Source: an uncultured bacterium
GTDB taxonomy: Bacteria > Cyanobacteriota > Vampirovibrionia > Gastranaerophilales > Gastranaerophilaceae
Assembly: GCA_949294335.1 (NCBI GenBank)
Contig: CASFGO010000030.1
Location: 62,001 to 126,000, forward strand
Length of the DNA stretch: 64,000 nt
Direction of reading: 5' to 3'
Shown: positions 19,920 through 21,319 of the stretch, one piece after another
Numbering within the stretch: position 1 is the stretch's first letter
Layout of the letters: each line of letters starts with the position of its first letter
Notes under the pieces: model-generated
Databases searched by the model: none
Seen by the model: only the letters and a program-made list of their open reading frames with translations
What the model was told of the DNA's origin: nothing
Position numbers and translations under genes: made by a program

Positions 19920-19948
19920 TTGATAAATAAAAGAAATTATATTAAAAT
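19920..19948 (+). promoter_or_regulatory. Sense promoter of small-peptide module 1
   Basis: TTGATA (19920-19925), exactly 17 bases, TAAAAT (19943-19948). The same boxes and spacing recur in module 2. The expected transcript start is about 19955, in CAGGG. Confidence 0.75.
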
Positions 19949-19954
19949 ACATTC

Positions 19955-20025
19955 AGGGTAAGCTCCGTATGATCCCACCCACACAGACTAGTTAAGAGAA
20001 ATTGGCGGGAAAGGGGGTGATAATC
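19955..20025 (+). promoter_or_regulatory. Structured leader and extended Shine-Dalgarno of module 1
   Basis: The leader contains TCCCACC and GGCGGGA, which can pair with one mismatch; module 2 has TCCACC/GGTGGA, perfectly paired. The ribosome site AAAGGGGGTGAT (20011-20022) matches the full anti-Shine-Dalgarno complement AAAGGAGGTGAT at 11 of 12 positions. CACCC in the leader can also pair with GGGTG of that site, so translation may be masked. Confidence 0.6.
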
Positions 20026-20097
20026 TTGGATTTCAGTATAACTGAAAAAGCGTTATGGCTTATCTTATTGATAATCATAACGCTTAGACTAAGATAG
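20026..20097 (+). CDS. Small hydrophobic peptide 1, candidate type I toxin
   Basis: A TTG-started frame of 23 codons ends at TAG 20095-20097. The peptide has a polar start (DFSITEK) and then a membrane-spanning stretch ALWLILLIIITLRLR with a basic end. That is the usual profile of type I toxin peptides that insert in the membrane. The TTG lies five bases after the very strong site AAAGGGGGTGA. An in-frame GTG at 20017 is an alternative start. An antisense RNA is predicted across the whole frame. Toxicity is inferred from architecture only; no known toxin family was recognised. Confidence 0.6.
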   Translation: MDFSITEKALWLILLIIITLRLR

Positions 20098-20147
20098 GGA
20101 GTTAAGAAAGCTTATAAGAGATGCACCTCTTATGAGCTTTTCCCTAT
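20045..20147 (-). ncRNA. Predicted antisense RNA of module 1
   Basis: A convergent promoter (20154-20181) should start transcription near 20147. The transcript would run through the hairpin at 20093-20146 and stop at a hairpin inside the peptide gene: GCGTTATG...CATAACGC (20050-20083), reinforced by inner TTATC/GATAA, followed on this strand by TTTTT (20045-20049). About 103 bases, complementary to most of the peptide mRNA. Expression is not shown by sequence alone. Confidence 0.6.
20093..20146 (+). terminator. Hairpin at the 3' end of module 1
   Basis: AAAGCTTATAAGAG pairs with CTCTTATGAGCTTT across ATGCAC, and the flanks ATAGGGA and TCCCTAT pair outside it. The TAG stop codon lies in the outer stem (ATAGGG). 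The matching place in module 2 has a different stem sequence but the same outer ATAGGG/CCCTAT. It may end the sense mRNA and form the 5' end of the antisense RNA. Confidence 0.55.
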
Positions 20148-20153
20148 AAATAT

Positions 20154-20181
20154 ATTATAGTATATTTCTCGCTTTTTTCAA
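20154..20181 (-). promoter_or_regulatory. Antisense promoter of module 1
   Basis: On the minus strand TTGAAA (20176-20181), 16 bases, TATAAT (20154-20159). The whole block from CCCTATAAATATATTATAGT through the -35 box is almost unchanged in module 2 (20472-20510), far more conserved than the peptide genes. Confidence 0.75.
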
Positions 20182-20245
20182 GATTATATCTTATAAATTA
20201 TTTAATTGATAATTAATCATTTATAAAGTTTTCTCCTTATTAAAA

Positions 20246-20274
20246 TTGATAAATAACAGGAATTATATTAAAAT
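20246..20274 (+). promoter_or_regulatory. Sense promoter of small-peptide module 2
   Basis: TTGATA (20246-20251), 17 bases, TAAAAT (20269-20274), same as module 1. Transcript start expected near 20281 at AGGGTA. Confidence 0.75.
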
Positions 20275-20280
20275 ATATCT

Positions 20281-20350
20281 AGGGTAGTACCTTTTACCTC
20301 CACCCACACACGAATTTTACTAAGAAATCGGTGGAAAGGGGGTGATTAAA
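20281..20350 (+). promoter_or_regulatory. Structured leader and extended Shine-Dalgarno of module 2
   Basis: TCCACC and GGTGGA form a perfect six-base stem around the shared CCACACA word. The ribosome site AAAGGGGGTGATT repeats that of module 1 and stands just outside the stem. Confidence 0.6.
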
Positions 20351-20425
20351 TTGAGAAGAGAAATAATAAAAGCTGCCATAATTGCAGTTATAGCAGCTCT
20401 TAAAATTCTATTAAACTTCTTATAG
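20351..20425 (+). CDS. Small hydrophobic peptide 2, candidate type I toxin
   Basis: A TTG-started frame of 24 codons ending at TAG 20423-20425. The product begins with charged MRREIIK and continues with a hydrophobic helix AAIIAVIAALKILL. It shares almost no residues with peptide 1 but has the same length, the same start codon and ribosome site, and the same relation to an antisense transcript. An in-frame GTG at 20342 is also conserved in position. Read as a diverged paralogue of module 1; function inferred. Confidence 0.6.
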   Translation: MRREIIKAAIIAVIAALKILLNFL

Positions 20426-20476
20426 GGTACTAAGTGAAGTCCTTTAGTAGCATAATTACTAGGGACTTCCCCCTAT
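20362..20476 (-). ncRNA. Predicted antisense RNA of module 2
   Basis: Expected start about 20476 from the promoter at 20483-20510. The intrinsic terminator lies in the peptide gene: AGCTGCTATAA pairs with TTATGGCAGCT (20371-20398, one G-U pair, loop of six), followed on this strand by TTTTATTATTT. The hairpin sequence differs from that of module 1 but holds the same place and function. Confidence 0.6.
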
Positions 20477-20482
20477 AAATAT

Positions 20483-20510
20483 ATTATAGTATATTTCTTT
20501 CTTTTTTCAA
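20483..20510 (-). promoter_or_regulatory. Antisense promoter of module 2
   Basis: TTGAAA (20505-20510), 16 bases, TATAAT (20483-20488) on the minus strand, identical boxes to module 1. Confidence 0.75.
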
Positions 20511-20547: not shown

Positions 20548-20635
20548 AGATTGCTTCGCCCTGCTCTCAATAACATAATTATTTATATGAACCGTCATTA
20601 CGAGGAACAAGGATTTTACTGTTTCGAAGTAATCT
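20548..20635. repeat. Dispersed palindromic repeat (GTCATTACGAGGA type)
   Basis: AGATTGCTTCG...CTCTCAATAAC (20548-20574) and GTCATTACGAGGAAC...TTCGAAGTAATCT (20594-20635) are imperfect inverted copies. They resemble the widespread bacterial intergenic repeat built on GTCATTGCGAGGA and its complement. A related copy is at 29112-29210. Confidence 0.65.
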
Positions 20636-20788
20636 GATATACATCAGAAGTCTACCTTCTTTATTCTTGGTCACTTAATCACTTAGTCACCATTATAAAA
20701 GTAGACAAAAGTTTTGTTGTTACGAAGTAATCTAATACACATCAGAAGTTTACTTTCTTTATTCTTGGTCACTTAATCACTTAGTCAC
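20620..20788. repeat. Two direct copies of a 71-base repeat
   Basis: Unit 1 at 20620-20690 and unit 2 at 20718-20788 share TTACGAAGTAATCT-like ends, ACATCAGAAGT, TTCTTTATTCTTGGTCACTT and AATCACTTAGTCAC with only a few differences, at a period of 98 bases. Unit 2 runs into the 3' end of the nitroreductase gene and supplies its last codons. Confidence 0.8.
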
Positions 20789-21319
20789 TGTTATATACTT
20801 ATTCCAAATAATATTATCGCTATTCCATTTCTCAATAACAGGAGAATCTCCATCAGCATAACCCATTGGAATAACACACAATGGTATTATACCATCCGGC
20901 ATGTTTAAAACCTTACGAGCAGTTTCGGCTCTGTCCATTTTAGGATAACAAGCAGTCCAAACAGCACCAAGTCCCAAAGAATGAGCTGATAACAAAATAT
21001 TTTCAACTGCAGCTGAGCAATCTTGCACCCAAAATGTTTGTGCAGTTAAATCCTCTTTATCTCTTATATCACCACAAACAACAATACATAAAGGAGCATT
21101 AAACAACATCTTTGCATAAGGAAGCCCTTCTGCTAATTCATCTAATAATTTTCTATCATCAACAGCAAAAAATTTCCAAGGCTGACGGTTTCTTGCAGAT
21201 GGAGCAGCCATGCCGGCACGCAAAATCAATTCTATTTTATCTTTTTCAATTGATTTATTAATAAATTTACGAACGCTTTTTCTTCTTAAAATAGCCTCAA
21301 TAACTTTGTTAGTTTCCAT
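20777..21319 (-). CDS. Nitroreductase-family FMN protein
   Basis: 180 residues. FMN-binding signatures are RRKSVRKF (about 12-19), AAPSARNRQPWKF (about 38-50) and the C-terminal LCVIPMGYA. Family members reduce nitro groups, quinones or similar with NAD(P)H. It stands alone. The last residues (TVTK and stop) are encoded by the end of the 71-base repeat, so the original C-terminus may have been replaced. Confidence 0.88.
   Translation of the reverse strand: METNKVIEAILRRKSVRKFINKSIEKDKIELILRAGMAAPSARNRQPWKFFAVDDRKLLDELAEGLPYAKMLFNAPLCIVVCGDIRDKEDLTAQTFWVQDCSAAVENILLSAHSLGLGAVWTACYPKMDRAETARKVLNMPDGIIPLCVIPMGYADGDSPVIEKWNSDNIIWNKYITVTK

Follow-up and report, generated by a model that had tools for sequence, protein, structure and literature searches.

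Predicted antisense terminators inside small hydrophobic peptide genes suggest a new type I toxin-antitoxin family in Gastranaerophilales

In the hok/Sok and AapA/IsoA systems, the toxin mRNA forms long-distance pairing between its 5′ and 3′ ends. In par of pAD1 (RNA I/RNA II), which belongs to the Fst/Ldr family of type I toxin-antitoxin (TA) systems, the toxin mRNA and the antisense RNA are convergent and overlap at their 3′ ends, direct repeats give the antisense RNA access to the translation initiation region, a leader stem-loop hides the Shine-Dalgarno (SD) sequence, a helix is formed with the 5′ end, the repeats are poorly conserved and give each unit its specificity, and the peptide is small and hydrophobic (PMC7472228). 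The bsrG/SR4, txpA/RatA, and bsrE/SR5 systems of Bacillus subtilis have convergent, 3′-overlapping antitoxins of 100+ nt that form a long perfect duplex, and their SD sequences are sequestered (PMC6562991). A 2025 report on Microcystis states that, apart from its own case, type I systems had been described solely from Proteobacteria, Firmicutes, and Tenericutes (PMC12390103). We analyzed a 64,000-nt stretch of DNA from an uncultured Gastranaerophilaceae bacterium of the phylum Cyanobacteriota (contig CASFGO010000030.1, positions 62,001–126,000; hereafter the window), which carries two tandem modules of approximately 275 bp each, spaced 326 bp. In each module, a small hydrophobic peptide gene lies opposite a predicted antisense RNA gene with its own promoter. 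We consider it highly probable, judging from the sequence and its relatives, that each module is a type I TA unit with an antisense terminator inside the open reading frame (ORF). The best reading is that these units form a new type I family, which combines par-like direct repeats with an antitoxin running into the ORF.

The plus strand of each module contains a promoter-like site, an AGGGTA start region, an SD-burying leader, a AAAGGGGGTGAT ribosome site, a TTG-start ORF, and a 3′ hairpin, and the minus strand contains a near-consensus TTGAAA-16-TATAAT promoter (Table 1). The promoter and 3′ regions of the two modules are 88–90% identical, whereas their middles differ. The ORFs encode hydrophobic peptides of 23–24 aa (MDFSITEKALWLILLIIITLRLR in module 1 and MRREIIKAAIIAVIAALKILLNFL in module 2). 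The hairpins and their strand preference, the stem covariation, the placement of the promoters, the match between repeats, the burial of the SD, and the spread of the modules were all computed from the sequences.

A preliminary description of this DNA placed a hairpin and a U-run within each ORF, and both are present there. In module 1, AAGCGTTATG (20048–20057) pairs with CATAACGCTT (20076–20085), the inner stem consists of TTATC (20060–20064) and GATAA (20070–20074), and the minus-strand U-run occupies 20049–20045. In module 2, AGCTGCCATAA (20371–20381) pairs with TTATAGCAGCT (20388–20398), and the minus strand reads TTTTATTATTT at 20371–20361. The minus-strand folding energies were −15.6 kcal/mol (z −6.4) for module 1 and −15.7 kcal/mol (z −4.2) for module 2, and none of 200 shuffled sequences folded as well. 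A generic terminator scan reported the module 2 hairpin (0.3 expected by chance) and missed that of module 1, the stem of which is bulged.

We examined further copies to investigate whether homologues lack the hairpin. In the first set, a minus-strand hairpin followed by a U-run was found inside the ORF of all 63 filtered modules, with energies from −7 to −23.5 kcal/mol. The held-out set comprised 60 loci obtained from the leader model and fetched afterwards, plus L145. Forty-seven of these were parsed directly, and the others, read by eye, are modules with in-ORF hairpins except the truncated copy L169 and L192, whose ORF contains an insertion; the start codon or SD has been lost from L156 and L175. 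All intact held-out copies thus keep the hairpin. The insertion in L192, which is of the ITEKALWL kind, is approximately 100 nt long and inverted-repeat-like, and breaks the frame. Taken together, 96 distinct intact ORFs (59 first-set and 37 held-out) of several peptide kinds have the hairpin in nearly all cases.

Each ORF was then recoded 100 times with synonymous codons at the codon usage of the window. No more than 5 of the 100 recodings reached the observed antisense-terminator score in 56/59 first-set and 34/37 held-out ORFs. The ungapped stem scorer is blind to bulged stems, including that of module 1, and most exceptions are ITEKALWL-kind stems with such a bulge. Hydrophobic codons are A+T-rich, and the recodings do give weak hairpins (mean score 16–25 vs 33–34), as expected if the hairpins arose by chance in A+T-rich, low-complexity coding sequence. 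This explanation is refuted by the synonymous controls, the shuffles, and the covariation described below, and its probability is practically negligible. These results indicate that coding for the peptide is not enough to account for the hairpin, which is far beyond chance over the family.

A perfect hairpin folds on either strand, and the in-ORF hairpin might be kept as a structure of the toxin mRNA that serves stability, translation control, or RNase cleavage, its terminator-like look being a by-product of symmetry. Whole-ORF energies are alike on both strands, and for the hairpin of module 1 (L021 copy) the plus strand gives a slightly stronger fold, which agrees with such a role. The antisense terminator score exceeded the sense score in 58/59 first-set and 37/37 held-out ORFs. 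Under a stem definition that is symmetrical for the two strands, G·U pairs numbered 106 in the antisense RNA vs 35 in the mRNA, and the U count after the basal G-C pair averaged 7.6 on the antisense side vs 5.2 on the mRNA side, being higher on the antisense side in 57 modules and lower in none. Measured from the antisense −10 box, the distance is 109±6 nt to the terminator and 138±15 nt to the start codon. The G·U bias, the side of the U-run, and the constant distance from the −10 box point to the antisense transcript, and an mRNA structure as the primary cause is very improbable. In regards to position, the two hairpins of the window do lie at the same place in the peptide frame, as had been described, but this does not extend to the family: in the 32-aa kind the hairpin occupies ORF nt ~52–87, vs ~18–50 otherwise. 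The hairpin position thus follows the antisense promoter, not the start codon. Taken as predictions tested on further copies, these data support the proposal that the hairpins are antisense terminators.

Paired substitutions in further copies, which had been suggested as a check, were found. Over the 34 distinct segments of the gapless K-X-X-I frame, 92.6% of the stem cells pair, and exchanging the 3′ halves between modules reduced this to 79.5% (maximum of 1000 exchanges, 83.8%). Both sides have changed in 9/14 stem pairs. The residue pairs are S(AGT)-L(CTT), T(ACC/ACT)-V(GTT), A(GCT/GCC)-A(GCT), and N(AAT)-F(TTT), and a separate K-X-A-L...G-H-Y-L frame contains D-L, Y-I, and N-F. By their codons, these matched residues are exactly what base pairing requires. 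A pN/pS of 0.34 across 101 close pairs shows purifying selection on the peptide, and the hairpin surpasses synonymous recodings. Because stem and residues covary while the peptide is under purifying selection, the double constraint of hairpin and peptide coding proposed earlier is real. A fixed length of the antisense RNA would force the terminator into the ORF, and the codons of its two stem arms would therefore evolve together.

A broader proposal is that this is an order-wide type I TA family in which the toxin is shaped chiefly by the antitoxin terminator, which dictates residue pairs and produces near-palindromic toxins (e.g., KAAIIAVIAALK) and protein covariation without structural contact, and in which exchangeable repeats act as address codes that separate up to ~10 units per genome. 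We put this proposal forward tentatively, at slightly less than an even chance.

A repeat of 6–9 nt in the leader loop (TACTAAG, TACGAAG, TACAAAG, GTTAAG, CTGTAAA, and others) recurs right after the stop codon of the same module. The longest word common to the leader and 3′ repeats was 6.70 nt, vs 4.79±0.18 with modules exchanged, and the complementarity of the mRNA 5′ tag to the 3′ repeat was 5.89 vs 4.97±0.13. No support was obtained for metastable pairing between the 5′ tag and the leader loop in the style of hok and AapA (4.76 vs 4.56±0.10). RNAalifold gave almost no consensus structure on the leader alignment, which contains gaps and register shifts, and the leaders were therefore folded singly. 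The predicted unpaired probability was 0.05 for the SD (below 0.3 in 79/80 leaders), 0.79 for the leader repeat, and 0.76 for the antisense anti-repeat. Because the leader repeat and its antisense complement are both predicted to be exposed, the antisense RNA could meet the leader loop-to-loop in addition to the 3′ end. In all modules of alignment A3, the leader hairpin contains, in its 5′ half, a near-invariant single-stranded CACACACG that has no partner opposite.

The in-ORF hairpin might instead be first a recognition element, a kissing loop between the antisense RNA and the mRNA, with termination incidental. Terminator loop 4 of SR4 makes the first contact with bsrG mRNA (PMC6562991), and complementary loops are present here by construction; the loop nevertheless varies freely in sequence and size (3–7+ nt) while stem and U-run are kept, and the repeats are the element conserved by match. 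Recognition as the primary role is quite unlikely, although it is compatible with the terminator and does not exclude it.

An antisense promoter-like site was found in 59/59 modules, with a median score of 11.0 and TTGACA/AATAAT as the commonest form, and the toxin promoter-like site is weaker (median score 9.4). The stronger antisense promoter fits a presumed antitoxin excess. On the proposed mechanism, the plus strand would give an mRNA of ~230 nt for a hydrophobic peptide of 21–32 aa, presumably a membrane toxin, and the leader fold would bury the SD and place the short module-specific repeat in the apical loop. The stronger convergent promoter just downstream would yield an antisense RNA of ~100–115 nt, containing first the complement of the mRNA 3′ hairpin and then the anti-repeat exposed in an internal loop. 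This RNA would next pass the stop codon and end at the intrinsic terminator within the ORF. It would bind the mRNA at two places, the perfectly complementary 3′ end and, via the repeat, the leader loop. This binding would block translation and mark the duplex for decay. We infer from sequence the production of both RNAs, termination at the in-ORF hairpin, toxicity of the peptide, and the role of the repeat as the contact site.

Amphipathic cationic helices such as that of module 2 could also suit secreted, signalling, or antimicrobial peptides that are regulated by an antisense RNA and are not toxins. The units stand alone, are multi-copy, tandem, decaying, and phage-borne, and have a convergent antisense RNA and a buried SD. 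Together these traits are hallmarks of type I TA systems (PMC7472228, PMC4147584), and a non-toxin role is unlikely. Several points weigh against the TA interpretation or its support. The peptides matched no toxin family of Pfam or NCBIfam at E≤10. Modules were recognised partly by SD, ORF length, and 3′ CCC, and the 63/63 count applies to recognisable modules. The exchange controls leave shared ancestry in, though distinct repeats coexist within genomes. Whole-ORF folding energy had no minus-strand preference (33 v 25), which only the terminator-like hairpin has.

A family-wide DNA search found copies in 112/288 genomes and 24/41 genera. The leader model R1, built from 39 copies, matched 129/241 sampled genomes of the order Gastranaerophilales, with up to 11 matches per genome. 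Outside the order, a 292-genome search gave only marginal matches typical of chance (best E 3.6e-4), and by these leader-model searches the family appears to occur only within the order. Presence is patchy, and tandem and decayed copies occur. The ORFs encode 21–32 aa, and the peptide kinds are IIKxxI..., KAPELELLEL, ITEKALWL, DKIIMLLLAL, KxALxxxGHxL, and KALxxLELL. The genome of the window itself has five units by the leader-model search. The third (L007, at G000:C30:56155) encodes MKLSFIPLVNFLIDKYKTKAPVVEILELLIKT, and its ORF likewise contains a hairpin and U-run on the minus strand. The five units carry three repeat addresses: TACTAAG in modules 2 and 3, GTTAAG in module 1 and L148, and TGAAGAAA in L147. 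Because addresses are shared, cross-silencing within the pairs is possible. Weak DNA matches in this genome at C6:64893 and C5:4659 were rejected as A+T-rich, promoter-like chance matches.

The circular phage record Dulem virus 31 (35.8 kb) carries a 71%-identical copy (E 3e-13), which is flanked by tail and lysis-type genes. This complete module (L207, PP511318.1 17879–18091) has the leader, the 3′ repeat, and its own in-ORF hairpin (KIAITVIIAILQ; ATC paired with GCG ATT). The host is probably a Gastranaerophilales bacterium. The record contains tail, baseplate, and PGRP-type genes, yet its taxonomy line says Microviridae, which looks wrong. Exact leader patterns had no match in IMG/VR, and a plasmid search found no copies.

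With these units, Gastranaerophilales (gut Vampirovibrionia/Melainabacteria), for which our literature search found no type I TA family, would gain one that is large and multi-copy. A search for type I TA with Melainabacteria returned no paper, and the two papers naming both Gastranaerophilales and toxin-antitoxin concern, by title and abstract, a Fusobacterium phage and a coral microbiome, with one to three mentions of each term. The modules would be an unusually clean case of one DNA stretch with two readings, in which one strand codes for a peptide and the opposite strand for an intrinsic terminator. Dozens of independent copies would allow this trade-off to be followed directly in codon-level compensations. 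Amino-acid covariation that arises from RNA pairing and not from protein contacts would call for caution in coevolution-based structure inference, and the repeats would be natural sets of antisense address codes.

The coordinates of the module features are summarized in Table 1.

Table 1. Features of the two tandem modules in the window
Feature	Position	Strand	Basis
Module 1 toxin-mRNA promoter TTGATA-17-TAAAAT	19920..19948	+	promoter scan; position conserved in module alignment
Module 1 5′ tag AGCTCC, can pair with GGAGTT 20098–20103	19961..19966	+	sequence; tag complements 3′ repeat more closely than with modules exchanged
Module 1 leader-loop direct repeat GTTAAGA	19991..19997	+	repeat match; loop exposure over 80 modules
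Module 1 SD GGGGGTGAT, predicted to be sequestered by leader hairpin	20013..20021	+	predicted unpaired probability, mean 0.05 over 80 modules
Module 1 peptide ORF, TTG start, MDFSITEKALWLILLIIITLRLR	20026..20097	+	sequence
Module 1 putative antisense terminator (hairpin and U5), in ORF	20045..20085	-	sequence, folding, family comparison
Module 1 3′ direct repeat GTTAAGA, right after stop codon	20101..20107	+	sequence, repeat match
Module 1 3′ hairpin: mRNA terminator region; complement is antisense RNA stem-loop 1	20107..20142	.	minus-strand fold
Module 1 antisense promoter TTGAAA-16-TATAAT	20154..20181	-	promoter scan; antisense promoter-like site in 59/59 modules
Module 1 predicted antisense RNA, ~100 nt	20045..20147	-	predicted start and predicted end
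Module 2 toxin-mRNA promoter TTGATA-17-TAAAAT	20246..20274	+	promoter scan
Module 2 5′ tag TAGTACC, complement of GGTACTA 20426–20432	20285..20291	+	sequence, tag/repeat test
Module 2 leader-loop direct repeat TACTAAG	20318..20324	+	sequence, repeat match, exposure
Module 2 SD GGGGGTGAT, pairs with ACCTCC region 20295–20300	20338..20346	+	sequence, folding
Module 2 peptide ORF, TTG start, MRREIIKAAIIAVIAALKILLNFL	20351..20425	+	sequence
Module 2 putative antisense terminator (hairpin and TTTTATTATTT), in ORF	20361..20398	-	sequence, folding, terminator scan, family comparison
Module 2 3′ direct repeat TACTAAG, right after stop codon	20428..20434	+	sequence, repeat match
Module 2 3′ hairpin: mRNA terminator region/antisense RNA stem-loop 1	20437..20475	.	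folding
Module 2 antisense promoter TTGAAA-16-TATAAT	20483..20510	-	promoter scan
Module 2 predicted antisense RNA, ~115 nt	20361..20476	-	folding, promoter scan, family distances

A lytic transglycosylase gene lies directly upstream of the modules, and its relatives in Candidatus Gastranaerophilales metagenome-assembled genomes (MAGs) are 92–97% identical. In the closely related MAGs represented by L020 and L024, another gene adjoins the transglycosylase gene in place of the modules, and in L024 a copy of module 1 lies approximately 1 kb further downstream. The site downstream of the transglycosylase gene has thus seen gain, loss, or insertion of modules among relatives. Two 98-bp direct copies, 84% identical and dispersed-repeat-like (GAAGTAATCTRATAYACATCAGAAG...TTGGTCACTTAATCACTTAGTCAC), occupy window positions 20607–20802, between module 2 and an ORF that by sequence reading is nitroreductase-like.

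The family resembles par/Fst in the convergent, 3′-overlapping arrangement, the repeats that would direct the antisense RNA to the translation initiation region, the buried SD, the helix with the 5′ end, the unit-specific repeats, and the small hydrophobic peptide. In par, the terminator is shared (bidirectional) and the overlap lies outside the coding region (PMC7472228), whereas the antisense RNA of the present family is predicted to cross the stop codon and to have its own separate terminator inside the ORF. Moreover, the two repeats flank the ORF, one in the leader loop and one just after the stop, and the peptides have neither a PXXXG(C) motif nor an Fst_toxin match (Pfam/NCBIfam, E≤10). 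In regards to hok/Sok and AapA/IsoA, 5′-3′ long-distance pairing of the toxin mRNA is a common feature, whereas metastable pairing between 5′ tag and leader repeat is unsupported here. The type I-like msoT1/msoA1 unit of Microcystis aeruginosa comes from the same phylum, Cyanobacteriota (PMC12390103), but from the class Cyanobacteriia, and is set beside the present family by description, not by sequence. As in the txpA/RatA and bsrG/SR4 group, a long 3′ duplex would overlap the end of the ORF, since the predicted antisense RNA of ~100–115 nt is wholly complementary. Rfam searched at its gathering threshold had no match in the window, and its matches in the modules were noise. The match of the RatA covariance model (RF01776) to module 2 is no better than noise (19.5 bits, gathering 49, E 9.7), and no leader/3′ direct repeats have been described in that group. 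In bsrG of SPBc2 (L208), the stop codon marks the beginning of the best minus-strand terminator, and only the U-run of this terminator lies in the last Lys codons. These comparisons suggest that the present family joins the par/Fst and bsrG/SR4 plans, with the whole terminator placed within the ORF.
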